Shown here piece after piece: positions 2 to 38,091 of a stretch of 64,000 nucleotides of DNA. The stretch lies in IMG/VR virus record IMGVR_UViG_3300031787_005083, positions 121,763 to 185,762 of that record. The stretch is one strand, 5' to 3'. Each line of letters begins with the position of its first letter. The first letter of the stretch is position 1. The notes beneath the pieces were generated by a model. That model made no database searches. It was not told the DNA's origin and saw only the letters and a list, made by a program, of their open reading frames with translations. The position numbers and the translations under genes are program-made. The stretch comes from a virus.

Positions 2-277
2 GGCATTTGGAGTACAATAGGTGCTCGAGAAGGTTGTTACATGACTAATTGTACTGACTGGGATTATGCACAGGTGCGCGACTTTGAATATTTAACTGAG
101 TATTGGAAAGAAAAGGGATACGGTCCTACAACAGATACTTCTGATTATTTTAATTGGTTAGGTACTGAACTTAAACACAAGTGCGGTTTAGAAGTTTCCA
201 ATATTGATAGTGACGGTTCAAAATTTTTCAAGACGGTGTATCAAAACACGCCAAGAATAATTAAAAGGGCAAAATGA
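2..277 (+). CDS. 3' end of a gene of unknown function (partial, or a 78-aa protein)
   Basis: The frame is open to the left edge of the window, so this may be the end of a longer gene. An ATG at 41 preceded by GAGAAGG (27-33, 7 nt spacing) could also start a 78-residue protein. The product is rich in Tyr, Trp and Lys, has no signal peptide or membrane segment, and matches no family I recognise. Its stop overlaps the ATG of the next gene (ATGA at 274-277), so it belongs to the same operon as the first radical SAM genes. Confidence 0.6.
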   Translation, partial: GIWSTIGAREGCYMTNCTDWDYAQVRDFEYLTEYWKEKGYGPTTDTSDYFNWLGTELKHKCGLEVSNIDSDGSKFFKTVYQNTPRIIKRAK

Positions 278-1656
278 GCAACGAGCAAAAAATACAAATA
301 CTCAAAGATAAACGAGATAAAATTAACTCAGTAAGTTGTAGTTTTTGCACAGCTAAATGGTTACAAACAACTTTATATCTGCAAAACGGTTACAATCACA
401 GTTGCCATCATCCTGCTCCTCATAAGATTCCTCTCGAAGAAGTACTAGCAGATCCTGCGGCATTGCATAACAGTAAATTTAAAAAAAGCCAACGTGAACT
501 GATGCTCAAAGGCGAGCGACCTAGTGAGTGTGATTATTGTTGGAACATAGAAGATTTAAATAAAGATTATTTTAGCGATAGGCATTATAAAACATCGGAT
601 TACTGGGCATGGGATAAATTTGATCAAATTGCTAACAGCGACCCTAATGATAATGTTTATCCTAGTTATTTAGAAATTAGTTTTTCCAATGCATGTAATT
701 TTGCGTGTATTTACTGTAGTCCTGAAATTTCATCTAAATGGATGGAAGATATACAACAGAACGGGTCTTACCCAGTTAAGAATGGAGCTCATCATTTAGG
801 CTGGTTAAAACAAGTGGGACGTTATCCGTATGCACATCACGATGAGAATCCGTATGTAGACGCTTTCTGGAAATGGTTTCCAGAAACGTTACCGCATTTA
901 AAAGTGTTGCGTATTACAGGCGGTGAACCAACTATGAGTAAAGACTTATGGAAATTATTAGATTACTTAATTGAAAACCCGCAGCCTGAATTAGAATTAG
1001 CTATTAACACTAACATGTGTGTGCCTGATGTATTAATTGAAAAATTAATTAATAAAATTAATAGCTTACGAGGTGTGATAAAGCGTTTAGATATTTACAC
1101 TAGTCTTGAAAGCACTGGATCTCAGGCAGAATATGCAAGAGACGGATTAGACATCAGTGTATGGCAGCAGAATGTTTGTAAAGTATTAGATAATACGCAA
1201 TCAACAGTGGCTATAATGACCACTGTTAACATATTAAGTTTACCTACCTTTGTAGATTTTATAGAACTAGTAATGCAGTTACGTAAAGATTACAATACAA
1301 ACTTTGAACATAATCGAATTCCGCTCAGTATAAATTATCTAAGATGGCCACCACATTTGCAATGCACTCTTTTAGATAAAGAAGAAAGACAGCAGTATGC
1401 AGATGATATCTATGTAGCTTGTGAAAAATGGCTGAAATATTATAGCTTAGAAAAGTATGCTCGAATCTATTTAGAAGAATGGGATCAAATACAAAGATTT
1501 TGTGATTACTTACGCACAGCAGAACCAGCAGTAGAACACAGACAGGACTTTGTAAGATACATACAAGAGTATAATTTTAGAAGAAACAAATCGTTTACTA
1601 AGATATTTCCTGAATTCAAAAACTTATTAAAGGAATGGGATGCCCAAGAAGCCTGA
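274..1656 (+). CDS. radical SAM protein with N-terminal SPASM/twitch-like cysteine domain
   Basis: A 460-residue radical SAM enzyme. The [4Fe-4S]/SAM cluster motif is C141-x3-C145-x2-C148, followed by GGEP at 216-219, the motif that contacts the SAM amino group. Before the core is a cysteine-rich region (C22, C25, C44, C86, C89, the last two in GERPSECDYCW) that resembles a SPASM/twitch auxiliary cluster domain placed at the N-terminus. The substrate is unknown. It is the first of two tandem paralogues: the next protein keeps C44, C86, C89 and GGEP at almost the same positions. The ATG start overlaps the upstream stop. Family assignment is strong; function is open. Confidence 0.88.
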   Translation: MSNEQKIQILKDKRDKINSVSCSFCTAKWLQTTLYLQNGYNHSCHHPAPHKIPLEEVLADPAALHNSKFKKSQRELMLKGERPSECDYCWNIEDLNKDYFSDRHYKTSDYWAWDKFDQIANSDPNDNVYPSYLEISFSNACNFACIYCSPEISSKWMEDIQQNGSYPVKNGAHHLGWLKQVGRYPYAHHDENPYVDAFWKWFPETLPHLKVLRITGGEPTMSKDLWKLLDYLIENPQPELELAINTNMCVPDVLIEKLINKINSLRGVIKRLDIYTSLESTGSQAEYARDGLDISVWQQNVCKVLDNTQSTVAIMTTVNILSLPTFVDFIELVMQLRKDYNTNFEHNRIPLSINYLRWPPHLQCTLLDKEERQQYADDIYVACEKWLKYYSLEKYARIYLEEWDQIQRFCDYLRTAEPAVEHRQDFVRYIQEYNFRRNKSFTKIFPEFKNLLKEWDAQEA

Positions 1657-3088
1657 AGAAGATTTAAAGCAATATAGAGAACGTGTTCTAGACACTAAGA
1701 GCACCAGCTTCTGCGGAGCAAAATGGTATAATGCTACTACATGGCTAGGTAGTGGTACCACAGCAAGTTGCCATCATCCTCCAGCACATAAAATTCCAAT
1801 AGAGGAAATTAAACGTAATTACACTGCTATTCATAATACTGAACATAAAAAAGAAATGCGTCGAATGATGCAGTCTGGCGAACGCCCTCGCGAGTGTGAG
1901 TACTGTTGGAAAATGGAAGACATGGGCAAAGATGCTGTTAGTGATCGAACATTTAAAAGTATCATTTATACTGATGAAGAACTACAACAGGCGTTTGATG
2001 CAGACATAAACGAAAATACTAATTTAAAAACTTTTGAAATTGCATTTGATAGGGTATGTAATCTTGCCTGTTCATATTGTAATGCTAGTTTCTCAACTAC
2101 ATGGGCAAAGGATATTAAAAACAACGGTCCTTATATTAATCTTGTAAGTGACGGCGCAGGCGCATTTCATCACGATGGATCTTGGGCACAGCCTTACAAA
2201 GACGATGAAGATAATCCCTATGTACAAGCATTTTGGAAATGGTGGGATAACGGACTATCAGAAAGTCTACAAGAGTTACGAATCACAGGCGGCGAACCTC
2301 TAATGAGTGGTAACACATGGAAATTATTTGATTGGTTTGAAGCGCAAAACAGTGATATGAGATTTGCTATTAACAGTAACTTAATTGCAAAGTCTGATAT
2401 TATAGATAAGTTAATTGCTAAATCAAAAAATATTAAACACTTTGATTTGTACACAAGTTGCGAAGCAGTAGGCGATCAAGCAGAATACATACGTGATGGT
2501 CTAGATTATCAACTATGGAAAACAAATCTAAAAAGAATTCTTACAGAAGCAAACTATAAAGGTGTACACATAATGATGACTATTAATAGTTTATCTTTGT
2601 TTAGTATTACTGAATTTCTTGACGAAATGTACCAGCTAAAAGAAATGACACAAAGTAGAACTCCTACTGTTAGTTTAAATCTGTTAAGATTTCCTAGTTT
2701 TCAAAGTCCGTTGGCACTACCTAATCATATTAAAGATCATTGCCATAAAAAGCTGTCAACATGGTATGCGCAAAATAAAGACCTACCAGGTTGGCACGAA
2801 TTTGAACGTGCAAGTATTGAAAGATTAATTGATTATCTTGTTACAGTAGATGCACCTCATCGCAGAACAAGTAATCCTATTACACTGTGGAGAGACTTTA
2901 AAACTTTTTATCAGCAGTACGATCAGCGCAGATCAAAATCCATATATGTATTTCCTAAAATTTTAACAGATTGGATTGATACTATACCTGATACAGACAT
3001 AGCAATAAAAGAGTTAGCAGACAAAGAAGGCTGGGTGTTAACACCTGACTCAAGGAACATTGATGATCCTATTGCGACCTACAATTAA
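1640..3088 (+). CDS. radical SAM protein, tandem paralogue of the preceding gene
   Basis: A 482-residue radical SAM enzyme with cluster cysteines C140, C144 and C147 and GGEP at 217-220. The N-terminal auxiliary cysteines C25, C44, C86 and C89 sit in the same contexts as in its upstream neighbour (ASCHHPP, GERPRECEYCW), which shows an old tandem duplication. The start overlaps the previous gene by 17 nt and has an AAAGGA Shine-Dalgarno 5 nt upstream. The C-terminal half has no recognisable SPASM motif. Substrate unknown. The two paralogues may act together or on related substrates; that is inference. Confidence 0.88.
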   Translation: MPKKPEEDLKQYRERVLDTKSTSFCGAKWYNATTWLGSGTTASCHHPPAHKIPIEEIKRNYTAIHNTEHKKEMRRMMQSGERPRECEYCWKMEDMGKDAVSDRTFKSIIYTDEELQQAFDADINENTNLKTFEIAFDRVCNLACSYCNASFSTTWAKDIKNNGPYINLVSDGAGAFHHDGSWAQPYKDDEDNPYVQAFWKWWDNGLSESLQELRITGGEPLMSGNTWKLFDWFEAQNSDMRFAINSNLIAKSDIIDKLIAKSKNIKHFDLYTSCEAVGDQAEYIRDGLDYQLWKTNLKRILTEANYKGVHIMMTINSLSLFSITEFLDEMYQLKEMTQSRTPTVSLNLLRFPSFQSPLALPNHIKDHCHKKLSTWYAQNKDLPGWHEFERASIERLIDYLVTVDAPHRRTSNPITLWRDFKTFYQQYDQRRSKSIYVFPKILTDWIDTIPDTDIAIKELADKEGWVLTPDSRNIDDPIATYN

Positions 3089-4355
3089 TTTATATTACGA
3101 TAATATTGTTAACGGAATACCTGTTCCTAACGGCATAACACGATATAAAATTAATAAACAGTACGATATTCCAGTGATGTCTAGTTTAGAATACAGTGAT
3201 CAAGTCCTTAAAACTACGTATTTTTATAATGTAATGAAGGCAAACGAAGTCACAGTTAATTTGTTTACTAAAAGAGATATGGCGTCAAATTTATTTTATC
3301 CATTGGAGCTTTCAAAAACAGCAATACGGAATCGTCTTATTGATATTATTCCGGAAAAGACATTAACTCGTATTAAAAAACGAAAAATGAAATTATTATT
3401 ACTTTATCAACAATGGATAGGTGATTATAACTTTATGCAAAATCTTAAAGAAAGAATTGATGTATTAATTCGAAACGGAGTTCCTACTGATCAAATTTAT
3501 TTAATAACCGGTGATATTAATTGTTCCTATCAGGAATTATTTGACAAGGTTAAAGTATTTGGTATTGATTGGTGGCAAATTGCTTATCAACTAACTTGTA
3601 AATCTAAGTATCAAAATATTGATTATCATTGGGTCACATTTTTACTAGATGATGAAGTGCGTGAAAGTTTTGATATCAATAATTGGAATAATCCCAGTTT
3701 ACTATTTACAGCATTAACTGGTGAATCGTCAATGCATTCACTGGCTACTATTACTGAACTAGAATCTAGAGAATTATTAGATAAAGGTTGCTATGAATTT
3801 AATGTTAAGAAAAACAAAAATCTAAATTTAGATAGTAAAATATTTACTAATGAGTCATTGTTAAATAACAAACAGTCAAAAAAAGATATAATTAATAATT
3901 TATTATCATCTGAGACAACTATCGCAAATATATCGGAGTCATTAGAAGACAGTCTATTTGCAATTGTAGCAGAGCCGTTCACACCTATGATGGATAAAAC
4001 GTATCTGTCAGAAACAAATGCACTATGGGTATCGCCAAATATATGGAACGCTATTGCTCAAGGTTATCCTTTTATGGTAGTAGGAAGTTTATCTACTATG
4101 CGTTATCTTAATAACGAAGGATATTTTAGTTATGTAGATCTGTTTAATGAAACATATGATAGTGTTAGTGATTTAAAAATTAAATTAAATTTAATAATGA
4201 CTGAAGTTGACAGATTATCTAAATTGTCTAAAGAAGAAATTAATGATCGTATAATTTTAACAAAACCATTTATCGAGGCCAATAAGAAAAAGTTTTATGA
4301 TAAAAAACACACTTGGAAATTTTACGACCTTTTCAAAGAAATGCAATATGAATAA
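3063..4355 (+). CDS. glycosyltransferase-like protein of unknown specificity (TEKTWR-related family)
   Basis: About 430 residues with no N-terminal signal. The C-terminal part (around residues 320-350) reads SPNIWNAIAQGYPFMVVG and is followed by a YLNNEGYFSY segment. This matches the layout of the two proteins at 33816 and 35982, which read FITEKTWRTxxxxHPFIFAG and then FRYIKxxGFxTFE. Such a motif order (acidic/Lys loop, Pro-Phe strand, Gly-Phe strand) resembles the nucleotide-sugar site of some GT-B glycosyltransferases, but that is only a structural guess. ATG at 3063 is preferred over TTG at 3060 because AAGGA lies 6 nt before it. It overlaps its upstream neighbour. Confidence 0.6.
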   Translation: MILLRPTINLYYDNIVNGIPVPNGITRYKINKQYDIPVMSSLEYSDQVLKTTYFYNVMKANEVTVNLFTKRDMASNLFYPLELSKTAIRNRLIDIIPEKTLTRIKKRKMKLLLLYQQWIGDYNFMQNLKERIDVLIRNGVPTDQIYLITGDINCSYQELFDKVKVFGIDWWQIAYQLTCKSKYQNIDYHWVTFLLDDEVRESFDINNWNNPSLLFTALTGESSMHSLATITELESRELLDKGCYEFNVKKNKNLNLDSKIFTNESLLNNKQSKKDIINNLLSSETTIANISESLEDSLFAIVAEPFTPMMDKTYLSETNALWVSPNIWNAIAQGYPFMVVGSLSTMRYLNNEGYFSYVDLFNETYDSVSDLKIKLNLIMTEVDRLSKLSKEEINDRIILTKPFIEANKKKFYDKKHTWKFYDLFKEMQYE

Positions 4356-5607
4356 AGATTTTAATAATTTTTGTGTAGCACCCTGGATGCACTTGCACGT
4401 CATCAACGACGGTAGAGCTTTTGCATGTTGTCAAACCCCATTAAAAAACGAAAATAGTTTTGGAAATGTAAAAACTCAAAAACTTATAGAAATTGTTAAT
4501 AGTGATCAAGCTAAAGTAATGAGGAAAAATATGCTTGAAGGCAAGCCTCTGCCTACTGCTTGTGAAAGATGTACTTCTAAAGAAGCTGTTGGACTTAATA
4601 GTATGCGAACAGGCTTTAATGATAGATGGTATGCAGAAATGCAACCGTTAATTGAACAAACAGATATAGACGGTGCCATTCCTTCATTGCAATTAAAATA
4701 CTGGGATTTTAGATTTAGTAACTATTGTAATCTAGCTTGCACAACATGTTCACCACTGTTTAGTACACAGTGGGCATCTGATTGGATTAAACTACATCCT
4801 GGATACGACAAATATTCTGAAACAAGATTAATTGATTTAGAAAAAGCAGATTTATTTTGGGACGACATTGCACAAAATTTAGATACAATGAAGCAGATAC
4901 ATTTTGCAGGTGGCGAACCACTAATGATGCCTGAACATTGGAAAATTTTAAAACTACTTGATGAACGTAAAAAATATGACATTGAATTAAGATACAGTAC
5001 CAATGGGACCACGTTAGGTAGAGATAAAGACAATGTATTAGATTATTGGAAAAAATTTAAACATGTACATTTAAGTTTGAGCATCGATGGCGAAGGTGAT
5101 GCATTTGAATATATCAGATATAAAGGTAACTGGAAATCTACATTTGAAAATTTAAAACGTATACGAGAAAGCGGAGTAGTTGATTATTGGTTTCATCCTA
5201 CAGTGAGTATATTAAATATATTTAGATTAACAGAATTGCATGAAGTTTTACATAAAGCAGATCTTATGCCTTTAAAATCAATACACAAGCACATGGGCTT
5301 CAACATTGAAAATTATTGGGTTGATAGATTTCACCTGAATCCTTTGTTTACTCCTGATTATTATAGTATAACAGTTCTTCCTGCCCATTTAAAAGATCAA
5401 GCCGCTGAAAAAATAACAAAGTATGGCAAGAAGCTTGAGGCTGACACAGCAATACCTTTTAGCGGTTGGCAAAATATTATTGATTTTATGTATAGTGAAG
5501 ATCGCAGCATACTATTTGAAAAGTTTAAATGGAAATCGCAACAGATTGATACTATTCGAAACAATGATGTTTTTGCATTTAATCCGGAGCTTATCAATGT
5601 TAAATAA
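4348..5607 (+). CDS. twitch/SPASM-type radical SAM protein
   Basis: A 419-residue protein from ATG 4348, which overlaps the upstream stop by 8 nt; a longer frame from 4297 would add residues lying wholly in the preceding gene. N-terminal auxiliary cysteines are C9 (FCVAPW), C27-C28 (ACC) and C72/C75 (CERC). The radical SAM motif is C127-x3-C131-x2-C134 with GGEP at 188-191. The layout CxxPW, CC, CxxC, then radical SAM recurs in the genes at 12391, 17482, 28831 and 37159. Substrate unknown; the auxiliary cluster suggests modification of a peptide or another large substrate, as in known SPASM enzymes. Confidence 0.88.
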   Translation: MNKDFNNFCVAPWMHLHVINDGRAFACCQTPLKNENSFGNVKTQKLIEIVNSDQAKVMRKNMLEGKPLPTACERCTSKEAVGLNSMRTGFNDRWYAEMQPLIEQTDIDGAIPSLQLKYWDFRFSNYCNLACTTCSPLFSTQWASDWIKLHPGYDKYSETRLIDLEKADLFWDDIAQNLDTMKQIHFAGGEPLMMPEHWKILKLLDERKKYDIELRYSTNGTTLGRDKDNVLDYWKKFKHVHLSLSIDGEGDAFEYIRYKGNWKSTFENLKRIRESGVVDYWFHPTVSILNIFRLTELHEVLHKADLMPLKSIHKHMGFNIENYWVDRFHLNPLFTPDYYSITVLPAHLKDQAAEKITKYGKKLEADTAIPFSGWQNIIDFMYSEDRSILFEKFKWKSQQIDTIRNNDVFAFNPELINVK

Positions 5608-6448
5608 AATAAAAAAATATATAAGAGGTTTAACTCTTGAAGAGTATATAAAATATGTAAAAACATCATCAAGTCATGTTAATAGTATTGACGACCTTGC
5701 ACAATTTGGTATTAAAAAATCAGTATGGTCTAAAGATGACTATGAGCGCGGCTATACAACTGTACTAGGTATGAATTCAGCAGAGGAAAAAATAGTAAAA
5801 CCTGGAGATTGGGAGTACGTTATCAATAGATACAATTTTAGAGAAATATGGGACTTTAATTCTCCTAGACCTAAAATTGGATTTTTTGGTTGTAGTTTTA
5901 CATTTGGTGAAGGTATAGAATATAAAGATACATTTGTTAGTATGGTTTCAAAGCAGTTTGACCTTAATTGTTTTAATTTAGCTATAGGTGGATCTTCTTT
6001 ACAAAGGGTGGCAAAAACGTTTAGTGCTGCCTCTAAAGTAATAGATCTTGATTATGCTGTGTTTACCTTGCCGCAATGGCATAGACAAATGTATCTTGAC
6101 GATCAAGGTAAAATTGTTAATCTTATACCCCAATGGCCGCATCAACAGTATGAAGAATTAAGTAATCAGCTTACTGCTTTAGACGAGGAATATTATATAG
6201 TACAAGCAGTATCTTATGTAAACTGGATACATGATTTAGCAGAACATAAAAATATAAAAATAATTTTATGTTCTTGGGATTATCCACTAAACGATTTATG
6301 TGAGGTTATGTACCCTAATGAAACAATAAAACCTTTTCCTAATATTGATGATAAATGCGCTAGAGATAAAATGCATCCTGGTATACGTTCTCAACATGCA
6401 CATGCAGAGCAAATTAAAAGAGCAATATATGATAGAGCTTGGTTTTAG
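5597..6448 (+). CDS. SGNH/GDSL hydrolase-like protein
   Basis: A 283-residue protein with the SGNH block I signature GFFGCSFTFGEG (nucleophile Ser100), a glycine in AIGGSS, and the C-terminal catalytic pair D257-x2-H260 in RDKMHP. These are the hallmarks of SGNH esterases or acyltransferase-like hydrolases that remove or move acyl groups on glycans and lipids. The first 90 residues have no recognised domain. ATG 5597 is chosen because GGAG lies about 8 nt upstream; an earlier ATG at 5423 lies inside the radical SAM gene. It overlaps that gene, so the two are likely co-translated. Confidence 0.75.
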   Translation: MLNKIKKYIRGLTLEEYIKYVKTSSSHVNSIDDLAQFGIKKSVWSKDDYERGYTTVLGMNSAEEKIVKPGDWEYVINRYNFREIWDFNSPRPKIGFFGCSFTFGEGIEYKDTFVSMVSKQFDLNCFNLAIGGSSLQRVAKTFSAASKVIDLDYAVFTLPQWHRQMYLDDQGKIVNLIPQWPHQQYEELSNQLTALDEEYYIVQAVSYVNWIHDLAEHKNIKIILCSWDYPLNDLCEVMYPNETIKPFPNIDDKCARDKMHPGIRSQHAHAEQIKRAIYDRAWF

Positions 6449-7391: not shown

Positions 7392-8193
7392 TTTTATTAA
7401 TGGTATATGGGAAAATGCTGGAAATGAATTTTGGAATATTAAGAAACCTGACGAAATATTAGGTATAGCTCGTGTGTCTAAACACATGTTAAGTTATTGG
7501 CCCAGAATTAAAAACTACGAAAACTACTTAATAAATTATTTTCAATACGGTATTAATAAAGAAGTAGAACCTACTATATGGTTATCTCACACAGATCCTG
7601 TGTATAACAGATATCAAGAAGAAATTGAAGGATATGTAAAAGCAGTTTGGCTTACACATGGATTTTTTACTGAAGGCGGTCTAAGAAAGCCAGTTGGGGT
7701 TCATTGGAGTCCTGTGTCTCTTGACTGGAGAATACATCCGGGTGGAACAAGACAAGCAATTATAAAATATTTTGCACCCGATGAAATAGATTGTCTTTGT
7801 TTTAATACAGGCGGTCAACCTATGCAATTTATAAAAGAATTTAACACAGTAGAAGAAATTGCTGAATATACTAATAGCTCTAAAGTTTTTTTAGTAGTTA
7901 CAGATGAACGCGGTCATTATATACCGCATGTTCATTTAGATGGATTTACTATTAAACCTGCAATGGTCGAGACACATGCACAGATGAAAAAGTTTTTTAG
8001 AAAAACTAAGATTGAAGCTAATTTTGATTTAGCTGAGTTAGGATATGATGAAACAAAAATATTAAAAACTGAAAAAAAACGCATAAAAATAACTATTGAA
8101 GATCAGTCTATGGATACAAAGGTAAAAGCAATGCTACTATTACCGTCGTTTAATAATTTTGAAGGACATGGAGTTAAAATTGAGCGTACCTAA
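7384..8193 (+). CDS. protein of unknown function
   Basis: A 269-residue soluble protein with many Trp, His and Asp residues. It includes a central segment around VHWSPVSLDWRIHPGG and the later HYIPHVHLDGF. I recognise no family. The ATG lies close after GGAG and overlaps the upstream stop; the next gene, a radical SAM protein, begins inside its 3' end. The tight overlap on both sides places it in the same functional unit as the flanking radical SAM enzymes. Its histidine-rich centre could indicate metal binding, but that is a guess. Confidence 0.7.
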   Translation: MANFINGIWENAGNEFWNIKKPDEILGIARVSKHMLSYWPRIKNYENYLINYFQYGINKEVEPTIWLSHTDPVYNRYQEEIEGYVKAVWLTHGFFTEGGLRKPVGVHWSPVSLDWRIHPGGTRQAIIKYFAPDEIDCLCFNTGGQPMQFIKEFNTVEEIAEYTNSSKVFLVVTDERGHYIPHVHLDGFTIKPAMVETHAQMKKFFRKTKIEANFDLAELGYDETKILKTEKKRIKITIEDQSMDTKVKAMLLLPSFNNFEGHGVKIERT

Positions 8194-9178: not shown

Positions 9179-9862
9179 ATGTATGATATCATTTTTATTT
9201 CTTATCAAGAACCTTATGCAGACATTAATTGGGAAAGATTAAAGTCTAAATTTCCTACAGCTAAAAGAGTTCACGGAGTAAAAGGAATTCATCAAGCACA
9301 CATCCAAGCGGCAAAATTGTGTTTTACAAAGATGTTTTGGGTCGTAGATGCTGATGCAGAAATAGTTGAAGATTTTAAATTTGATTATGTTGTTCCTGAA
9401 TGGGATTTAGAAACAGTACATGTATGGCGCAGTATAAATCCTGTTAACGATTTAGTTTATGGTTACGGAGGTGTTAAACTACTTCCTCGTAAATTAACAA
9501 TAAACATGGATACATCAAAAACTGATATGACAACAAGTATTAGTACGTTGTTTAAAGCAATGCCTGAAATATCTAATATTACAGCATTTAATACTGATCC
9601 GTTTAATACGTGGAAAAGTGCATTTAGAGAATGTGTAAAATTATCAAGCAAAACAATCGATAGGCAAGACGATATAGAAACTCAGTTAAGACTAGAAGCG
9701 TGGTGTACATTAAATGAGTCAGCGCCATACGGCAAATATGCACATCTGGGAGCTATTGCTGGAAAATATTTTGGTTTGTTTTGGCAAAATGCACCTAGTG
9801 AATTAGCGAAGATAAATGACTTCGAATGGTTAAATGAACAATTTTCAAAAAATACCTTTTGA
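9179..9862 (+). CDS. small glycosyltransferase-like protein
   Basis: A 227-residue protein whose N-terminal half looks like a minimal GT-A fold: MYDIIFISYQEP at the start and a DxD-type motif, VVDADAEI (D57 and D59), preceded by a hydrophobic strand. DxD binds the metal and nucleotide sugar in GT-A enzymes. It is short for a full family 2 enzyme, and the acceptor is unknown. It starts 15 nt after the preceding radical SAM gene. Upstream lies an A/T-rich stretch containing TATAATAA four bases before the ATG, with no clear Shine-Dalgarno. Confidence 0.6.
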   Translation: MYDIIFISYQEPYADINWERLKSKFPTAKRVHGVKGIHQAHIQAAKLCFTKMFWVVDADAEIVEDFKFDYVVPEWDLETVHVWRSINPVNDLVYGYGGVKLLPRKLTINMDTSKTDMTTSISTLFKAMPEISNITAFNTDPFNTWKSAFRECVKLSSKTIDRQDDIETQLRLEAWCTLNESAPYGKYAHLGAIAGKYFGLFWQNAPSELAKINDFEWLNEQFSKNTF

Positions 9863-26785: not shown

Positions 26786-26793
26786 GATAAATA
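26786..26793 (+). promoter_or_regulatory. T4-late-like promoter box, leaderless spacing
   Basis: GATAAATA at 26786-26793 ends 4 nt before the ATG at 26798. T4 late promoters read TATAAATA and initiate roughly 5-6 nt after the box, so transcription would start on the start codon. No Shine-Dalgarno lies upstream. The same arrangement is seen at 19996-20049 and 32964-32975. Confidence 0.5.
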
Positions 26794-26797
26794 TTTT

Positions 26798-29985: not shown

Positions 29986-31205
29986 TTCCAGTCTAGATTA
30001 TAATGCCAAGTTGGTTTTTTTAAAGTTTCCATATTAGTAATTTTAAAATCTTTACTAATTCCCAATGTCTTTAAATTTTCTACAAATCCAACTGCGGCCC
30101 TAATATTAAAATTAATTGTACATTCAGGAACTTTTTCTTTTAATGAATTAATAATTTCATTTTCTTTGTGTACCCTATAGTACAACGGTGACAAACATGC
30201 TGTACCTTCGTAGCAAAAAATATTTGATAAATTAATTAACGTAGTTGAATTATGCTCTGCGTTGATGTAATCTATAAGATTATTTTCTAATAGTAAATCG
30301 GCTTTTACAAATATATACTCAATATTATTCTTTTGTTGAATTTTGTTCTTCCAGTAGTTTAAAGCATTATCATTGTAATCATAAACAACGATTCGACCCT
30401 CGTCAATTAAATCAGTATAAAGTAGACCACTAGCTGGAATAATTAATTGTGTAAATTTTTTATTAACATTGCTATGTTCTTCGGTATTTTCTGTATGAAT
30501 AAATTCAGATGCTGCATACTTTTCTCGAAAGTATACCCAATTAAGATTTTCTAAAAAGTCTTTTTTAGATTCTGGATAAAGATGTTTTTTGTTATGTCTA
30601 ATATCGTTATTAAATATTTTAACAGGCAGATTATATGTAAGTGCTAAACTTAATATATTCCATCCGTGACATTTATGATCATATGATTTAGTTTGATATC
30701 CAGTTTTAACCCAAATAGGTGTATAATCATCGTGTATATTTTCTACACTTCTTTCTGGAATCACTTGAGTATGTTTAGTACCAAGCTCTAATTGACCAAT
30801 TGCTGGACAACCTAATTTACGATATATTTCTAAATTTATTAGATAACACTGATTGTGCAGTTCATAATATGCGGTACCTCTATCTAGAATATGTCCATAG
30901 ATAAAAAAATCGTCTTTGATAAGATCTTCTAATGAATTAAAAAACTCACTTCCGTTAATAAATTCTGTCCCAGTACTAAAGACAAGAGCATAGGTATAAT
31001 CTAAATTTGCTACATGTTGTAATACAGTATCCTCATTTAAAGACTGATATACATCATAATTTTTATTTAGTACATTTGATAATGTATAATCAGACTGATT
31101 TTTTATAATTTCCTTACAAAAATTATCTTGTATCTGATTAGTATTATCTATAAAACAAAATGCAATCTTATTAGAAGAATTATAATTGTACTCAACTACA
31201 TTCAT
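29982..31205 (-). CDS. two-domain protein of unknown function
   Basis: A 407-residue soluble protein. The first about 230 residues look like an alpha/beta domain with a TGTEFINGSEFF turn, where glycosyltransferase-like folds often have their acidic loop. The last 170 look Rossmann-like, with LIIPASGLLYTDLI, a strand GRIVVYDYNDNAL and an INLSNIF strand, resembling a SAM-dependent methyltransferase. I cannot name a family for either part. It overlaps the upstream radical SAM gene by 4 nt, so it is translationally coupled with it. Confidence 0.6.
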   Translation of the reverse strand: MNVVEYNYNSSNKIAFCFIDNTNQIQDNFCKEIIKNQSDYTLSNVLNKNYDVYQSLNEDTVLQHVANLDYTYALVFSTGTEFINGSEFFNSLEDLIKDDFFIYGHILDRGTAYYELHNQCYLINLEIYRKLGCPAIGQLELGTKHTQVIPERSVENIHDDYTPIWVKTGYQTKSYDHKCHGWNILSLALTYNLPVKIFNNDIRHNKKHLYPESKKDFLENLNWVYFREKYAASEFIHTENTEEHSNVNKKFTQLIIPASGLLYTDLIDEGRIVVYDYNDNALNYWKNKIQQKNNIEYIFVKADLLLENNLIDYINAEHNSTTLINLSNIFCYEGTACLSPLYYRVHKENEIINSLKEKVPECTINFNIRAAVGFVENLKTLGISKDFKITNMETLKKPTWHYNLDWN

Positions 31206-32203
31206 TTTTTATAAAATTTAATAGGCAAAACATTTTCTTCGGTCAATATTACTTCATTTTGAGATGACGGACACATTGAACATTCACTAATTGGTTTATA
31301 CTTAGAAATAGAAAAATTTTCTACTTCTTCGTCAGTACAATTAGTTAAGTCAAGAGGTTTGTATGCTAAAAATTTCTGCCATTCTTCGTCGTCGACTGCA
31401 TTATGTCTTTCTAAAAAGTTTTTTAAAGTTCCTAATGCTGCACACTTATAAAGTTTTTTATTATACATAAATGTACAGTAACAACTTGGACAGTTACCAT
31501 AATAAGCCTTTTCAATATCCGTTGAGTTAAACGGTTTTGGTTTATTATCTTTCATGTAAAAATGTTTTAGATGGGAATCTTGATCAATTGAAAGTACACC
31601 GTACTGGCCGTTCCACCAAAAGTCATCATCAGGCGGAATTGGTGATTTATTTTCTATAGCACAATAAGCATTATGTCTATAGTCCTTAACATCAATCCAA
31701 TAATTCCTCCAACCATCAGTAGAGTCGTACATCATCTTTGACCAAAAATTCTCACTAGGAAGTTTTTGAATATCAAGTTTTTCTGTTAACACTTCAACGG
31801 CAGCTTTTATTCTATTTGATCGAGTCTTATCTTCAAATTGAATAAAGTGATCACTAACTAATATCATAACTTTATACTTAACAATAATATTAGATAAGAA
31901 GTCTATGTTCTTATCGATAAGTTCGCCATTAGTTGGAATCCATACTGGTGTAGTTTGATCAAAGCTTCTAATAAATTCTAGGAGTGATTCAATTCTGTCT
32001 TTGTATAACAGTGGTTCACCGCCTAGTAAACTATAGTGTTCAATATGAAACTTTTCTTTAGTTAACAGAATTCCTTCTTTGATTGTTTCAAGGTCAGGAT
32101 CATGTTCTCCTTTTCTAATCAAGTCACTACGTGTATCACACTGTTGGCAGGCAATTTGACATTTATTGCCGTAAAAAATATCAAAAACTTTAAGATTGGG
32201 CAT
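31202..32203 (-). CDS. radical SAM protein (CSMCP subtype)
   Basis: A 333-residue protein with C15-x3-C19-x2-C22 (NKCQIACQQC) and LGGEPLL. The C-terminus ends with ECSMCPSSQNE, also seen as CSMCPNSVE in the divergent gene at 32980, so these two form a subfamily with their own C-terminal cysteines. ATG 32203 is chosen because AAGGA lies about 5 nt upstream, while the longer frame (32248) has none. It overlaps the 2OG oxygenase-like gene by 14 nt. Substrate unknown. Confidence 0.86.
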   Translation of the reverse strand: MPNLKVFDIFYGNKCQIACQQCDTRSDLIRKGEHDPDLETIKEGILLTKEKFHIEHYSLLGGEPLLYKDRIESLLEFIRSFDQTTPVWIPTNGELIDKNIDFLSNIIVKYKVMILVSDHFIQFEDKTRSNRIKAAVEVLTEKLDIQKLPSENFWSKMMYDSTDGWRNYWIDVKDYRHNAYCAIENKSPIPPDDDFWWNGQYGVLSIDQDSHLKHFYMKDNKPKPFNSTDIEKAYYGNCPSCYCTFMYNKKLYKCAALGTLKNFLERHNAVDDEEWQKFLAYKPLDLTNCTDEEVENFSISKYKPISECSMCPSSQNEVILTEENVLPIKFYKK

Positions 32204-32936
32204 TATATTCCTTTTTATAACTTCTAGCAACGAGTTTAGTAAACTCACTTGTTTTATTTTCTAATTTACCGTGCGCAATTAAATGTATCCTAGACGTGTT
32301 AGATAAATTTATTACGCTATGATAATTTCTAATATTTATGATAAATGCTTTTCCGGTTTTAAATGGAACACATCCGTAACCGTCCAAGCTCATATAACAT
32401 TCTTCTGGATGTACTAATGCTATGTTTATGGGAACTCCAAATTTGAGAGCATCAAAGTTTTCTTCACCAGGTAATTTACCAGGGGCATCACTATGCGGGC
32501 TAATATGCCCTCCTGCTTCCAATTCCATAAATCTTATTCTTCTATAAGTATCGTACGGAAAGTTCTTCCAAAATTCTTTAATTACAGGTGTTTTGGATGC
32601 TACCGGGGTCCAATCATATGGTACTTGATCTTCATGGGTGTAACCATACGAAGTCCATGCACCGGTGCTAGCCGCGTTTATACCGTGTATACAGCAACTA
32701 TTCCACCCATGACTATCGCTTTCTCTATGAGGAACTAAATGTACTTTTGAATCCTCAGCTTCTTTAATCCATTTATCAACATCAAACTCAATATCAAGTT
32801 CTAACCAACCAAAATTACTTTTGTTCAATAACCAATCTGCTATTTCATAATCAGTTTTCGCCCATTCAGGCATTTTAGGTAAGTTAGATTTTATATTTTT
32901 GTTTTTGTGATAAAAATCCAACGCAGTGGTATTCAT
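32190..32936 (-). CDS. 2OG-Fe(II) oxygenase-like protein (Asp/Asn hydroxylase type)
   Basis: A 248-residue protein with H148-x-D150 (SPHSDAPG), H206 (NYHSVIN) and R216 (SRIHLIAH), the iron and 2-oxoglutarate ligands of Asp/Asn beta-hydroxylase-like enzymes. The N-terminal 130 residues are Trp/Asp-rich with no recognised motif. It heads a - strand operon with a CSMCP radical SAM gene and the two-domain unknown gene. It is transcribed from a shared, palindromic late promoter box and has a 27-nt leader without a strong Shine-Dalgarno. Confidence 0.7.
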   Translation of the reverse strand: MNTTALDFYHKNKNIKSNLPKMPEWAKTDYEIADWLLNKSNFGWLELDIEFDVDKWIKEAEDSKVHLVPHRESDSHGWNSCCIHGINAASTGAWTSYGYTHEDQVPYDWTPVASKTPVIKEFWKNFPYDTYRRIRFMELEAGGHISPHSDAPGKLPGEENFDALKFGVPINIALVHPEECYMSLDGYGCVPFKTGKAFIINIRNYHSVINLSNTSRIHLIAHGKLENKTSEFTKLVARSYKKEYNAQS

Positions 32937-32979: not shown

Positions 32980-33813
32980 ATGAACACAAAAATAAAAATC
33001 CCACATCTTGAGTGGCATGTTGCTCATGCTTGTAATCTATCTTGTAAAGGTTGTTGCCATCTTTCTGATTATGGGCAAAAAGGAATAGTTAGTTATAATG
33101 AGATCAAAGACTGGTATTCAAAATGGAGTCATAGACTAGCACCAAAATCAATAGACATTTTAGGGGGAGAACCTTTATTAAACAAAGATATCTGTAAAAT
33201 TATTTCTTTAACAAGAGAAATGTGGGATGATCCGTATCTAGAACAATTACAATTAACAACTAACGGACTTTTAATTCACAAATTTCCAGATTTACCTAAA
33301 GTATTAAAAGATTCTAATTGTTCTATTTCAGTGTCTTGGCATAGTGAAGATCCAAGTTATAATAAATTGTTTGATAAATCTAAAAACATTTTAAATGAAT
33401 GGGTAGAAAAATACGGAATCCAAGTTCGTATACTAGATTTTTATAATTATTGGACTCCATTTTATAAAGGTTACGGTAGCACTATGGAACCGTTTAACGA
33501 AGAAAACTTTGAAAAAAGTTGGGATAATTGTATAACGGGACAAGATTGTTTTCAGATATATAATGGCGATATTTATAAATGCTCAAATTTAGCGTACTTG
33601 CCTATGACTAAACAAAAAATTAATCTTTCAGAGAATTGGGATTATTATCTAAGTTATGTTCCACTAAAGCCGGAAGCTTCGGACAATGAAATTACAGAGT
33701 TTTTTAATAAAGGTGCAGAAAAATTTTGTAGTATGTGTCCCAATTCAGTTGAAATGATTAAAAAACCAGATCCTTTAAAATTTCGTAAACAAATACTGAT
33801 GAAGAAAATTTGA
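32980..33813 (+). CDS. radical SAM protein (CSMCP subtype)
   Basis: A 277-residue protein with C18-x3-C22-x2-C25 (HACNLSCKGCC) and LGGEPLL. The C-terminus carries FCSMCPNSVE, as in the divergently transcribed relative at 31202, which shares LGGEPLL too. Between them lies the late box. The gene is the shortest radical SAM protein of the island. It is followed at once by a TEKTWR-family gene. Substrate unknown. Confidence 0.86.
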   Translation: MNTKIKIPHLEWHVAHACNLSCKGCCHLSDYGQKGIVSYNEIKDWYSKWSHRLAPKSIDILGGEPLLNKDICKIISLTREMWDDPYLEQLQLTTNGLLIHKFPDLPKVLKDSNCSISVSWHSEDPSYNKLFDKSKNILNEWVEKYGIQVRILDFYNYWTPFYKGYGSTMEPFNEENFEKSWDNCITGQDCFQIYNGDIYKCSNLAYLPMTKQKINLSENWDYYLSYVPLKPEASDNEITEFFNKGAEKFCSMCPNSVEMIKKPDPLKFRKQILMKKI

Positions 33814-33815
33814 TT

Positions 33816-35018
33816 ATGAAACAAGGAAGATTAATAAACTTTGAATTACTGTGGGATACTGACCTAAGCGTCAATGTTGTATTACCAAAACTACTTGAAT
33901 TAGAATTTCAAGAAGCAGTAGCTGACGGAGTAACTACCATTTTTGGAATGTTTTTAATGGAGGGAATTTATCCGCATGATTGTCATAATCAACAACTGTT
34001 TTTAGAAATTAAAAAAATAGCTGACAAATACAATTTAGAAGTTATTCTATTGTCAGGCCTTGGAGAAAGTTTTAACAATCAGTATAGTATAGAAAATGGT
34101 AGTATTTTAAACAATCTTCCATTTGAGGTAATATACTCATCATATCCTTTAAGAGTATGTTACAACATCATTAATAATATTCCTAGAAAATCAAAAACTA
34201 TCAATAATAAGTTTTTATTCTTAGGTGGAATTCCTACTAGATTAAATAGAATTTATTTATTAAGTAAGTTGTATGAAAACAATCTTTTAATAAATGGTAA
34301 ATGGTCATTTTTTATTCCGTTATCCCAAGAAGATAAAAATTATTGCAGAAATTTATTATCACATTATTCAGATGAAGAGTACGAAACTTTTTTAAAAAAC
34401 TGTACTAGCTCAATAGATGAAAAATATCAAGAAATGGCTAACTTTTTTCAAGACTATGCACCGTACGAAGAAGGCGATCTTGAAAAGTGGGGCGAAATAG
34501 TTCATACTGATTTTTGGAAAAATCCTATATACATAGATCCTGAAGTTTACGATGAAACTTCGTTAAGTATAATTTCTGAAGGTCCAAATTATTGGTCGCC
34601 TGATTATAAATTTATTACAGAAAAAACATGGCGGACAATAATTTATAAGCATCCTTTTATATTTGCAGGCCCGCCTGAACAGTTTAGATATATTAAACAA
34701 ATGGGATTTGAAACATTTGAAAAATATATGCTTATTCAAAATTATGCACAGGTGGAAGATGAAAAAGAAAGAATTGAATTGATTGTTAAAAATGTAGAAC
34801 ATTTTTTAAAACACCAAACTTATCATCAAAAAGAAATACAACAAGATATTGAACATAATTTTAACTTATTCTTAAAACTAGCCAATGATCAAAATTGTCT
34901 ACTAACATCTTTAAAATCAAAATACAATATTCCTGATGCTGAGTTTTCAAAATTTTTTAGTACAACCGGCTATGAAAATTTGATTAGGCCCGTTGCCGAC
35001 CTCAAAAAATTAGGCTAG
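33816..35018 (+). CDS. TEKTWR-family glycosyltransferase-like protein
   Basis: A 400-residue protein from ATG 33816; a TTG at 33810 is the alternative. Around residues 250-290 it has SEGPNYWSPDYKFITEKTWR, then a HPFIFAGPPEQF strand and FRYIKQMGFETFEKY. The gene at 35982 is 50-70 percent alike at DNA level in this part by eye, and the gene at 3063 is a distant relative. The motif order resembles the donor-sugar site of GT-B glycosyltransferases, but I have no proof. A PLP-enzyme gene lies between the two copies. Confidence 0.55.
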   Translation: MKQGRLINFELLWDTDLSVNVVLPKLLELEFQEAVADGVTTIFGMFLMEGIYPHDCHNQQLFLEIKKIADKYNLEVILLSGLGESFNNQYSIENGSILNNLPFEVIYSSYPLRVCYNIINNIPRKSKTINNKFLFLGGIPTRLNRIYLLSKLYENNLLINGKWSFFIPLSQEDKNYCRNLLSHYSDEEYETFLKNCTSSIDEKYQEMANFFQDYAPYEEGDLEKWGEIVHTDFWKNPIYIDPEVYDETSLSIISEGPNYWSPDYKFITEKTWRTIIYKHPFIFAGPPEQFRYIKQMGFETFEKYMLIQNYAQVEDEKERIELIVKNVEHFLKHQTYHQKEIQQDIEHNFNLFLKLANDQNCLLTSLKSKYNIPDAEFSKFFSTTGYENLIRPVADLKKLG

Positions 35019-35090: not shown

Positions 35091-36001
35091 AAAATAATTA
35101 CGATAAACGGCATCTTCCTTTTGGACATTCTACAGCTATACAAGACAAAGAAACATTATCTTTTATCAATAATTGTAGTATCTCAACACAAACATTAAAC
35201 GATCAAACAATTAACGAACAATTCCTTAGCAAGTATGTAGAATGGATATTGACTACAACAAATAACAAAGTAACTGGTATTGATCAGTATCCATTCAAAT
35301 GTTTTTCGCAAGGGACATCTGAAGCGTTTGAAAAATTTTATATGAATTATTCTCATAGAAGATTTCGATGTTTTAAAGGCGAGTATGTTTATCATAAATT
35401 AGCTTGGAGAGATGATAGATTTAATTGGAAATACTTAGAGGATGATGCGCTTGATGCCAATGACGTAGTAATAATTAGTCAACCTTTTTCTGATACAGGC
35501 GATCAGCATCCTTTACTTAATGATATTTTAGATCAATGTGACAAACTAAATATTCCTGTAGTACTTGATTGTTGCTACTTTGGTATTTGTAGTAATATAA
35601 ATTTTGATTTTACAAGACCTTGTATAAAAGAAATCATCTTTAGTTTATCTAAAACTTTTCCAGTAGCTCATATTAGAATAGGTATGCGTCTTTCAAGGAT
35701 TGATAATGACGATTTGTTATTTGTGTATAACAAAAGTGGCTACACAAATAGATTAGCAGCAAGTATAGGACTTAATCTTATTAATCATTTTGATTCTGAC
35801 TACATAGTTAATAAGTATAAAAATAAACAAATTGAAATCTGTAAAAAATTAAATGTAACTCCTAGCAATACTGTGTTGTTTGGAATAGGCGGCTCTGAAT
35901 GGCAGGAATACAATCGTGATAGAGCTACTAACAGATTAGGATTACATAATTTTTTACACATGGAAGATACAGAGTGCTTAGATGAATATGTCAAAATCTA
36001 A
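35087..36001 (+). CDS. PLP-dependent aminotransferase-like protein (fold type I)
   Basis: A 304-residue protein with the landmarks of the aspartate aminotransferase fold: D161 and Y164 in VVLDCCYFG (the Asp pairs with the pyridine nitrogen), the Schiff-base lysine K189 in FSLSKTF, and R197 in IRIGM, which binds the cofactor phosphate. The family usually has 350-400 residues, so this one is short, apparently lacking part of the N-terminal arm. It may transfer an amino group to a keto sugar or keto acid. It lies between two TEKTWR-family genes. Confidence 0.7.
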   Translation: MKNNYDKRHLPFGHSTAIQDKETLSFINNCSISTQTLNDQTINEQFLSKYVEWILTTTNNKVTGIDQYPFKCFSQGTSEAFEKFYMNYSHRRFRCFKGEYVYHKLAWRDDRFNWKYLEDDALDANDVVIISQPFSDTGDQHPLLNDILDQCDKLNIPVVLDCCYFGICSNINFDFTRPCIKEIIFSLSKTFPVAHIRIGMRLSRIDNDDLLFVYNKSGYTNRLAASIGLNLINHFDSDYIVNKYKNKQIEICKKLNVTPSNTVLFGIGGSEWQEYNRDRATNRLGLHNFLHMEDTECLDEYVKI

Positions 36002-37169
36002 AATTATAAATTTTGAATGGATGTGTGATCACAATCATTACACCCATGAACAATTTGATAAAATTAAAACTGATTTAATTAAAAAAGACATTGATCAAGC
36101 CATAGATGAAAATGTTGATACTGTTGTAGGGCTTTATCTAATGGATGGGTTTTTACAACCTAAGTATAGATACAAAGAGTTTATTTTGCACCTAAACGAA
36201 ATAAAAGATTATGCTTACAATGCTGGAATTAAAAAAATAATTCTAATAAGTGGCCATGGCGAAACATTAGATAATTGTCCCTTTGAATACCTGTTTTTAG
36301 ATTTTAATCTTAGATTATTAATTAATAGCTATCCTGATCTAAATGTATTACCTAAATTCAATCCTGAAAATACAAAGTTTCTCTTTTTAACTGGCATGCC
36401 AAATAGACCTAATCGTATAGGTCTATTGAGCAAGTACTATGATAAAGATTTATTAGACACTGCTGAGTGGAGTTTTTTTGGCCCATGGACACCTATGGAT
36501 CAATCTTGGTGTAGAGAATATCTTAAACATTATAGTGATGAACACTACAATACATTTTTAATTAATTGTGAAAGATCTTTTGATAATAGATATGAAACGT
36601 GTAAGCCATTCTATGGATCGTATACTTCAACGGAAAATGCACCGCTATGGTATGATGTAGTTAATATTGACTGGGTTCAATTACCCAGTCATATTGATTC
36701 TAAAGTATATAGCGATACACTTTTTAGTGTTATATCTGAAGGTCCAAATTTTTGGTCTGAAGATTGGAGTTTCATTACAGAAAAAACATGGCGAACTTTT
36801 TTACATCGTCATCCTTTTATATTTGCCGGGCACCCTGATCAATTTAGATATATTAAGAAACTTGGATTTAAAACATTTGAAGAATATTTGTTAATCAAAG
36901 ATTACGCCTATATTGAAGATGAAAATGAAAGACTAGATGCTGTAGTCAAAAATACAGAATACTTATTAAAAAATATAAAAAATAATTTAGATGCTATAGA
37001 AAAAGACGTAGAATATAATTATCAAATGTATTTTAATCATGTAAACAATCAGGATAAAATTTTTAAATTCTTAAAGCACGATTTAAATGTTTCGTCAGAT
37101 GATATCCAGCCATATGCTAATATCAAAGGTTATCCGTATCTCATTAGGAGAATACCTGATGGATTCTAA
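35982..37169 (+). CDS. TEKTWR-family glycosyltransferase-like protein, duplicate
   Basis: A 395-residue paralogue of the gene at 33816. It shares IINFEWMCD with INFELLWD at the N-terminus, and FITEKTWRTF, HPFIFAGHPDQF and FRYIKKLGFKTFEEY around residues 245-290. The long stretch of near-identical bases between the copies indicates a fairly recent duplication. The start overlaps the aminotransferase stop by 20 nt, and a second ATG at 35988 is possible. Function unknown beyond glycosyltransferase-like. Confidence 0.55.
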   Translation: MNMSKSKIINFEWMCDHNHYTHEQFDKIKTDLIKKDIDQAIDENVDTVVGLYLMDGFLQPKYRYKEFILHLNEIKDYAYNAGIKKIILISGHGETLDNCPFEYLFLDFNLRLLINSYPDLNVLPKFNPENTKFLFLTGMPNRPNRIGLLSKYYDKDLLDTAEWSFFGPWTPMDQSWCREYLKHYSDEHYNTFLINCERSFDNRYETCKPFYGSYTSTENAPLWYDVVNIDWVQLPSHIDSKVYSDTLFSVISEGPNFWSEDWSFITEKTWRTFLHRHPFIFAGHPDQFRYIKKLGFKTFEEYLLIKDYAYIEDENERLDAVVKNTEYLLKNIKNNLDAIEKDVEYNYQMYFNHVNNQDKIFKFLKHDLNVSSDDIQPYANIKGYPYLIRRIPDGF

Positions 37170-38091
37170 ATGTGCAGCTTTCTGGAAACATACTAATGTT
37201 CGTAGCGATAACAAAATATTTCCCTGTTGTAGATTTAAGAATCCTGTAGATAATTTCAACGGCGATTTAATTCATATATTAGAGTCCAGTGCATATAAAG
37301 AACTTAGAAAAAAAAGTTTAAACGGTGAATTTATCCAAGGTTGCGAAAAATGCTATTACGAAGATGCCAACGGTAGGCAAAGTCTTCGACAACGATTAAA
37401 CAAAGAATATACTACTGACACAGTTGAATTAGAATTTTTAGAAATAGGGTTTGACAATATATGTAATTTAACCTGTGACGGATGCTGGAGTGATTTTAGT
37501 TCCGAGTGGAGTAAAAAACTTAACCCTACTGCAAACAAGATTACTCACTATCGTTCAGTTGATGAGATTGTTAAAGTTCCGTCTAGTATTAAAAAAATAC
37601 TCTTTTTAGGCGGTGAACCTTTAATGACCAACCGGCATGAAAAGTTTTTAAAACTAATTGAAAATCCAGCAGCAGTTGAAATAATTTACAACACTAACGG
37701 AATGTTTTTGTTAAAAGAAGAATTTATTAATTTTTTACATCAGTTTAAATCGGTAAAATTTACGTTAAGTATTGATGGGTACAAAGATCTAAATAACAAA
37801 GTTAGATCTGGAAGTAAGTGGGAAGATATTTTAAGTTTTATAGAACAGATATCTAAATCTAACTTTGATCTAGAAGTGAATACAGTGTTACATTTAAATA
37901 ACTGGCACGGAATAAAGGAGCTTGAATCCTTTATACAACAATTAGGAGTACCGTGGATAGTAAATGTTTTAACATATCCTACACATTTAGATATTTCTAA
38001 TTTTGAACAAAAGGAACAAATTATTAATTTGATTAGCGAAACAAACATTCCAAATAAAACTTATGTCATTAACCATCTATTACATAATTAA
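37159..38091 (+). CDS. twitch/SPASM-type radical SAM protein, short form
   Basis: A 310-residue protein from ATG 37159, chosen because AGGAG lies about 8 nt upstream. N-terminal auxiliary cysteines are C5 (KCAAFWKH), C23-C24 (FPCCRF) and C62/C65 (CEKC). The radical SAM motif is C102-x3-C106-x2-C109 and FLGGEPLM follows. Compared with its relatives (380-460 residues) it lacks the C-terminal 80-100 residues. A strong AAAGGAG site for the next gene lies just after its stop. Substrate unknown. Confidence 0.86.
   Translation: MDSKCAAFWKHTNVRSDNKIFPCCRFKNPVDNFNGDLIHILESSAYKELRKKSLNGEFIQGCEKCYYEDANGRQSLRQRLNKEYTTDTVELEFLEIGFDNICNLTCDGCWSDFSSEWSKKLNPTANKITHYRSVDEIVKVPSSIKKILFLGGEPLMTNRHEKFLKLIENPAAVEIIYNTNGMFLLKEEFINFLHQFKSVKFTLSIDGYKDLNNKVRSGSKWEDILSFIEQISKSNFDLEVNTVLHLNNWHGIKELESFIQQLGVPWIVNVLTYPTHLDISNFEQKEQIINLISETNIPNKTYVINHLLHN

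Follow-up and report, generated by a model that had tools for sequence, protein, structure and literature searches.

A radical SAM-rich gene island in a T4-superfamily phage and its predicted role in sugar or glycan tailoring

Gene content of the island

We analysed a gene island rich in radical S-adenosylmethionine (SAM) enzymes in the window, a 64,000-nucleotide stretch that forms the last 64 kb of the linear 185,762-base virus record IMGVR_UViG_3300031787_005083 (positions are those of the window unless prefixed by C1, which marks record coordinates). Judged from sequence, the carrier is a T4-superfamily phage; its major capsid protein is gp23-type, with 65-70% identity to large phages of that superfamily, e.g., Sinorhizobium phage Phosso and Vibrio phage 2.275.O. 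Flanked by tail-fibre genes, the island extends from about C1:117,976 to window position 40,859 (about 45 kb), with about 45 packed genes, 15 of which are radical SAM genes; its coding share is 99.5% and its largest gap is 68 b. At the left edge are two GT8-like genes, a GDP-mannose-dehydratase-like epimerase gene and a GT-A-like gene, and beyond position 40,859 a tail-fibre-like gene with an Mtd_N domain forms the right border. The remaining content comprises about 10 oxygenase-like genes (22514, 32190 and 38724 being backed by Pfam) together with methyltransferase, kinase-like, SDR-like, SGNH-like, QueC-like PP-loop, aminotransferase and amidinotransferase genes. No membrane-embedded protein is apparent among the island proteins, the lone hydrophobic stretch being the N-terminus of the 5423 gene, which is probably over-extended; all the enzymes look soluble, and thus no flippase or polymerase appears to be supplied by the phage.

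The initial annotation had listed 15 radical SAM genes, each with a CxxxCxxC motif and most with a GGEP-like one, in at least four subtypes, and this census held. All of the open reading frames (ORFs) are present, all carry CxxxCxxC and all match PF04055 (E ≤ 6e-4), 12 of them above the curated cut-off; among the three below it, rSAM2 passes N_Twi_rSAM (302 bits), and rSAM6 and rSAM8 pass SPASM. We also considered that most of the CxxxCxxC proteins could be something else, and by profile all 15 are radical SAM proteins. Of the 46 island proteins, 15 have the motif, whereas a mean of 0.14 is expected by chance (per-protein shuffling, 300 shuffles, maximum 2). Exact GGEP was found in 12 proteins, GSGEP in one and a looser variant in two. 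Four genes have longer upstream starts (4297, 8159, 28810 and 37087 in place of 4348, 8168, 28831 and 37159), and five lie on the minus strand (13742, 14818, 16602, 17482 and 31202), the others being on the plus strand.

The four subtypes are backed by BLAST grouping and C-terminal motifs. In the N-terminal SPASM/twitch subtype, seven proteins pass NF033640 (N_Twi_rSAM, "twitch domain-containing radical SAM"; cut-off 170 bits, whole-protein score) with 212-415 bits: rSAM1 (274..1656, 325 bits), rSAM2 (1640..3088), rSAM3 (4297..5607, 379 bits, also SPASM and PF04055), rSAM7 (12391..13785, 415 bits), rSAM11 (17482..18729, 320 bits), rSAM12 (28810..29985, 233 bits) and rSAM15 (37087..38091, 212 bits). 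The N-terminal SPASM protein rSAM8 (13742..14839; SPASM 42.5 bits, PF04055 21.4 bits) probably belongs here as well, with an NF033640 score of 54 bits that is under the cut-off. The C-terminal SPASM subtype holds rSAM4 (8159..9163; PF04055 1e-10, SPASM 5.5e-11) and rSAM6 (10813..11799; PF04055/SPASM), the GWxC subtype rSAM5 (9834..10820; PF04055 2e-12), rSAM9 (14818..15909; 3.7e-12) and rSAM10 (16602..17489; 4e-13), and the CSMCP subtype rSAM13 (31202..32248; PF04055 4.5e-8) and rSAM14 (32980..33813; 8e-10; best PDB match 7wzv). A QueE gene had been counted as a sixteenth member; a QueE-like gene is indeed present in the window, but its match is weak (PF04055 17 bits) and the canonical third cysteine is absent (CNFKCAGF). 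The record totals 17 radical SAM genes, including the QueE-like gene and one at the left end (C1:304-819); rSAM8 was under the threshold of the record-wide search and was missed by it. Viperin-type defence (NF038283 / pVip) was rejected, the best score being 54 bits against a cut-off of 180 with only about 90 core residues matched.

The other genes are described here along three modules, A, B and C; several of their labels derive from reading of motifs by eye, as indicated for each. Upstream of the window start, the epimerase (PF01370, E 4e-37) stands with the two GT8-like genes (glycogenin match, E 0.0045). Module A holds the GT-A-like gene (3' end at 2..277, +; whole gene C1:121146-122039, i.e., L007:3146-4039; A4 family, with a modelled paralogue at 9179), rSAM1 and rSAM2. 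To its right are GTx1 (3060..4355, +), a putative glycosyltransferase-like protein with no Pfam or NCBIfam match that is weakly similar to GTx2, then rSAM3, an accessory SGNH-type hydrolase-like gene (5423..6448, +, start probably at about 5600; GxSFTFG-type motif by reading, no Pfam match), rSAM4, and a GT-A-like protein (9179..9862, +) that often adjoins rSAM5 and whose AlphaFold model (pLDDT, the model's confidence score, 88.8) has GT-A glycosyltransferases as best PDB matches (E 3e-4, TM about 0.4).

Module B starts at rSAM5 and continues with rSAM6, a class I SAM methyltransferase-like gene (MT11789; 11789..12394, +; weak PF13649) and rSAM7, the anchor of the module. After rSAM8 and rSAM9 come, on the minus strand, an SGNH/GDSL hydrolase-like gene (15934..16605; PF13472 0.024, weak), the module B genes rSAM10 and rSAM11, an accessory SGNH-like hydrolase gene (18719..19339; motif by reading, no Pfam match) and the QueC-like PP-loop ATPase gene of module B (19312..19995; phrog_1550 2.6e-7; PF06508 0.0055, below cut-off). 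On the plus strand follow a putative Fe(II)/2-oxoglutarate (2OG) oxygenase gene of module B (19966..20709; HxD...H motif only), a kinase-like fold by reading (20711..21388; no Pfam match; paralogue at 25096-25791, 1e-8), three oxygenase genes (21381, 21949 and 22514; 21381..23545), of which 22514 encodes a cold-shock domain plus a 2OG-Fe(II) oxygenase (PF13640 3.4e-10) and the others were assigned by homology to 40317, and two short SDR-like paralogues (23542..24578; by reading). Co-conserved GNAT-like, kinase-like, methyltransferase (25781; PF03602/PF06325) and oxygenase-like genes at 24552..27613 also belong to module B.

Module C lies to the right of rSAM12 and includes an Asp/Asn-hydroxylase-type oxygenase (32190..32936, -; PF05118 3.5e-8), rSAM14, a fold-type I-like pyridoxal phosphate aminotransferase (AT35087; 35087..36001, +; PF00155 5.9e-4), the putative glycosyltransferase GTx3 (35982..37169, +), rSAM15, a StrB1-type amidinotransferase (39277..40368, +) and, at the right end of the island, a 2OG-oxygenase-like gene (40317..40859, +; weak PF05118). 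GTx2 (33810..35018, +) is a paralogue of GTx3 (39% identity); the structural matches of the latter in BFVD include a 788-aa phage protein, probably a fusion, that bears the name UDP-glucose/GDP-mannose dehydrogenase, and weaker ones to glycosyltransferases. The bordering tail-fibre/tropism-determinant-like gene is at 40856..42001 (-; PF18454 Mtd_N 2.3e-9). Elsewhere in the record, sequence reading gave a GroEL-like chaperonin gene (L002:4159-5748), and near a tail-fibre region, at about C1 27-36 kb, a tryptophan-halogenase gene (L002:7475-9073; PF04820, E 3e-100) and two further ones by reading (L002:11516-13078 and 14862-16289) alternate with 2OG-oxygenase genes.

Conservation of the modules and history of the paralogues

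Relatives were sought among viral contigs retrieved by sequence patterns from each query, which favours near relatives, and the flanks of the retrieved loci were limited to 10 kb, so that absences are lower bounds on conservation. The rSAM7 query gave 80 viral loci in 28 clusters at 88% identity, and the 22 clusters with at least 11 kb of sequence were counted as independent lineages. Across these lineages the module B order rSAM5-rSAM6-methyltransferase-rSAM7...rSAM10-rSAM11-PP-loop is kept: rSAM10 is present in 22 of 22, rSAM11 in 21 (the two being adjacent in 21 of 22), rSAM5, rSAM6 and the oxygenase 19966 in 20 each, MT11789 in 19 and the PP-loop gene in 17. The amidinotransferase query returned 26 loci in 7 clusters with the module C order aminotransferase-GTx-rSAM15-amidinotransferase-oxygenase; oxygenases 32190 and 40317 and the aminotransferase were found in all seven lineages, GTx3 and rSAM15 in six. 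In each of the 18 module A loci, rSAM2 comes next after rSAM1. Contig G003 has both modules B and C, arranged as in the window, and 13 related records have 6-15 radical SAM matches each. The co-occurrence in other phage contigs that the initial annotation had proposed to look for is therefore present, all three modules keeping order and content. In relatives L126 and L140, halogenase or adenylate-forming genes adjoin module C.

A tree of 48 N_Twi proteins, in which branches are long and the placement of rSAM8 is unsure, contains no exclusive pair of window paralogues; each groups with orthologues of other phages. On this tree, the radical SAM paralogues of the window are separate old lineages, not recent tandem duplicates. 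Phage and Bdellovibrionota-like lineages are in part intermingled, and rSAM2, which is 57% identical to a protein of a Bdellovibrionota-like metagenome-assembled genome (MAG), falls inside a bacterial group; this pattern suggests gene exchange between the two.

Some of the Bdellovibrionota-like twitch radical SAM proteins are closely related to phage rSAM1/rSAM2. Tandem arrays of such genes were seen in a Bacteriovoracaceae MAG (G013) and in MAG G014 (loci L090, L159, L160 and L161), with 10 and 26 matches per genome; the surroundings of the arrays are housekeeping genes, and one array lies beside ATP synthase genes. A cellular origin of module B was tried and rejected: among the 84,980 species scanned, there were one archaeon-binned contig and two MAGs with distant N_Twi arrays. 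The contig (L089, PUNK01000001.1; 3.5 kb, binned as a Thermoplasmata archaeon) shows the phage order rSAM7-rSAM9-rSAM10 and is probably a misbinned phage fragment. In a cultured phage, Vibrio phage K566 (L008; 160-170 kb, 178 kb), there are five N_Twi matches, two of them above the cut-off, with hypothetical genes between.

A predicted sugar- or glycan-tailoring pathway and its alternatives

By sequence comparison, the clearest functional clue of the island is the StrB1-type amidinotransferase of module C. It aligns with StrB1 (1BWD) at 317 bits and 46% identity, with the catalytic Asp/His/Cys of StrB1 at D190, H239 and C348; AGAT, HsvA and SxtG reach 200-223 bits, and the protein is closer to StrB1 than to glycine amidinotransferase (317 vs 200 bits). 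In the cultured Synechococcus phage S-SCSM2R, an rSAM14 relative (39% over 266 aa), an oxygenase like 40317 and a StrB1-like amidinotransferase stand among glycosyltransferases (one of them PF00535/PF02709) and a DegT/StrS aminotransferase. Campylobacter phage CP220 has an amidinotransferase gene (35% identity) with five radical SAM genes around it, and two nucleotide-diphospho-sugar transferase-like genes come next. Among the relatives of the island, module C has NAD epimerase and UDPG_MGDP_dh genes inserted between the aminotransferase and oxygenase 40317 (L126), or such genes stand beside an amidinotransferase (L129), and a UDP-sugar dehydrogenase gene lies near module B (L138). The nearest solved relatives of the N_Twi profile include, weakly, cytosylglucuronate decarboxylase.

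Because of the StrB1-like amidinotransferase, the S-SCSM2R and CP220 contexts, and the epimerase and UDP-sugar dehydrogenase insertions in relatives, we favour, at an even balance of probability, the reading that the island encodes a sugar- or glycan-tailoring pathway, its substrate and product being predictions. The amidinotransferase, the aminotransferase, the nucleoside diphosphate (NDP)-sugar enzymes and the glycosyltransferase-like genes point more narrowly to amino- or guanidino-sugar or glycan tailoring. The initial annotation had taken the gene density to suggest a multi-step pathway of unspecified product; the conserved modules, the orthologues that each paralogue has of its own and the 99.5% coding share agree with a real pathway, and the product can now be narrowed. 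In such a pathway, the aminotransferase would form an amino sugar or aminocyclitol, to which the amidinotransferase would transfer the amidino group of arginine to give a guanidino sugar, as in streptomycin. The twitch/SPASM radical SAM enzymes may dehydrogenate, epimerise or deoxygenate the sugar by C-H chemistry, its completion may fall to oxygenases and methyltransferases, and the GT8-like, GT-A-like and GTx proteins would attach the finished sugar. As acceptor, a host surface polysaccharide (with a change of receptor and exclusion of competing phages) and glycosylated virions or tail fibres appear about equally likely.

Several observations weigh against sugar tailoring. The glycosyltransferase calls are weak here (E 3e-4 to 5e-3, TM about 0.4) and clear in S-SCSM2R; the left-edge epimerase is clear in this phage, and UDP-sugar dehydrogenase and epimerase are clear in relatives. 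GTx3 was rejected as a known glycosyltransferase fold, its confident model (pLDDT 89.9) having no PDB match. The NDP-sugar enzymes of this phage all fall outside its modules, at the left edge and at 60029, and module B, the richest in radical SAM genes, bears no direct sugar signature here except the adjoining GT-A-like gene. HsvA and SxtG show that the amidinotransferase superfamily also uses non-sugars, and the Bdellovibrionota-like N_Twi arrays have no glycan genes nearby.

A wider proposal, which we put forward only tentatively, is that several T4-like phage lineages carry a streptomycin-like pathway in which radical SAM chemistry helps to make a guanidino-amino sugar that is attached to virions or to the host surface. 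If true, this sugar would be a dedicated viral glycan whose chemistry is undescribed in phages, centred on a phage-specific twitch radical SAM family (rSAM7). Three phage groups, two with cultured members (Synechococcus phage S-SCSM2R and Campylobacter phage CP220), share the pairing of radical SAM enzymes with a StrB1-type amidinotransferase, and this pairing can be put to the test: a guanidino-sugar is expected in the virion or in the glycan of the host. Should that hold, phage-host recognition and the control of superinfection would gain a new kind of chemistry, and many sugar-active radical enzymes would await characterisation.

Promoter motifs offer a hint of when module C is expressed. 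The count of the strict motif TATAAATA showed no enrichment. The looser motif NATAAATA, which we take to be the T4/cyanophage late-promoter consensus, is enriched genome-wide at a distance of 18-38 b ahead of ORFs, often structural ones (15 of 37 sites vs 16 of 478 for permuted motifs, p 5e-11; examples are C1:13378, 47658, 90208 and 115519 and window 32971, 35051 and 42039). Two of these sites are within the island and precede oxygenase 32190 and aminotransferase 35087; their conservation before module C is poor and does not extend to most relatives, and therefore late expression of module C is taken only as a hint.

Four other explanations were weighed against sugar or glycan tailoring. Direct modification of a protein (tail fibres or a host target) by peptide epimerisation, crosslinks, hydroxylation or guanidination, with no sugar involved, is in our judgement unlikely. 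It would leave unexplained the StrB1-type enzyme, which in relatives accompanies sugar enzymes and a DegT aminotransferase; the island has no recognised peptidase or transporter, the scores are far from every maturase cut-off, and no RiPP (ribosomally synthesised and post-translationally modified peptide) precursor gene was found where long ORFs leave no gap above 68 b. This explanation does, however, fit the mostly peptide-acting nature of twitch/SPASM radical SAM enzymes, the many weak NCBIfam neighbours that are peptide maturases, the action of Asp/Asn-hydroxylase-type oxygenases on proteins, the flanking tail-fibre genes, and the late expression suggested by the two late-type promoter motifs. 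A RiPP pathway proper was rejected, since no precursor peptide gene was found in the island. That there is no single pathway, the island being a hypervariable region that gathers unrelated auxiliary genes, we hold to be distinctly unlikely: rSAM3, rSAM4, the first SGNH gene and others do occur in few relatives, and the equivalent pelagimyophage region was termed hypervariable with radical SAM cassettes (PMC7029224), but gene content and order are stable in each of the three modules (over 18 loci, 22 lineages and 7 lineages, respectively), and every paralogue is a separate old lineage that has orthologues of its own.

It seems improbable that the island serves to hypermodify phage DNA or a nucleotide pool, with a modified base built by radical SAM enzymes and oxygenases together with the QueC-like PP-loop protein. 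The QueC-like gene is part of the module B core and is the only QueC candidate in the record, and QueE-like (48985-49842, with a non-canonical cysteine motif) and FolE (50996-51835; PF01227) genes occur elsewhere in the window; yet the PF06508 match is below cut-off, the latter two genes are about 30 kb off and outside the conserved modules, QueD was not found in the possibly incomplete record, and the modules contain no recognised enzyme for DNA binding or base attachment. A large protein at 57363-58922 looks tRNA-guanine-transglycosylase/DpdA-like by eye (no Pfam or meaningful PDB match), and together with the QueE-like and FolE genes may represent a 7-deazaguanine pathway without a recognised QueD. 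Equally slim is the chance that the product is a diffusible small molecule made during infection, such as an aminoglycoside-like antibiotic, a siderophore or a signal: the StrB1-like enzyme, kinase-like genes, methyltransferases and oxygenases, the tryptophan halogenases of the record and the adenylate-forming enzymes of relatives recall natural-product chemistry, whereas no carrier-protein or export genes were recognised, the benefit to the phage is unclear, and a site between tail-fibre genes suits a surface or virion function better.

Comparison with known systems

The rarity that the initial annotation implied for such islands was overstated, as multi-radical-SAM modules of T4-like phages have been published (PMC2853527, PMC5332604, PMC7029224). 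In the T4-like Campylobacter phages CP220 and CPt10, radical SAM proteins number 11-12, and each exchangeable cluster holds five plus an amidinotransferase (PMC2853527). Their amidinotransferases are 35% and 23% identical to that of the island, and CP220 shares the nucleotide-diphospho-sugar transferase-like genes that follow; however, these systems are smaller and lack module B, no CP220 protein exceeds the N_Twi cut-off, and the other radical SAM proteins are only 23-30% similar. The 183-kb T4-like environmental genome TARA_ERS488813_N000010 has 12 radical SAM genes and, in contrast to the present record, an A-type Fe-S carrier and a glutaredoxin, with no pathway proposed (compared by description, not sequence; PMC5332604). 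A phage-borne Fe-S supply of that kind was rejected here, neither the Fe-S_biosyn nor the glutaredoxin family having a match in the record. The host-recognition cluster of pelagimyophages is also a hypervariable region close to tail fibres; it encodes glycosyltransferases (GT8) and includes radical SAM cassettes, which are mentioned only briefly, no modules being described (PMC7029224). Given these reports, radical SAM richness in phages is not new in itself; it has been reported since 2010 without a functional reading.

A glycan-like cluster of S-SCSM2R (PQ898602) unites an rSAM14 relative, an oxygenase like 40317 and a StrB1-like amidinotransferase, but it has only that one radical SAM gene, its aminotransferase is of the DegT type where the island has AT35087, and its transferases are of GT25/GT2 type. 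With streptomycin biosynthesis the island shares an amidinotransferase 46% identical to StrB1 with the catalytic triad aligned, whereas no known aminocyclitol pathway genes were recognised in it. Literature searches on twitch radical SAM with phage, and on amidinotransferase with radical SAM, phage and lipopolysaccharide, found nothing. As far as the literature was searched, three findings are new compared with these systems: the genes are conserved as modules, the link to StrB1 extends over several phage groups, and the rSAM7 family appears to be specific to phages.

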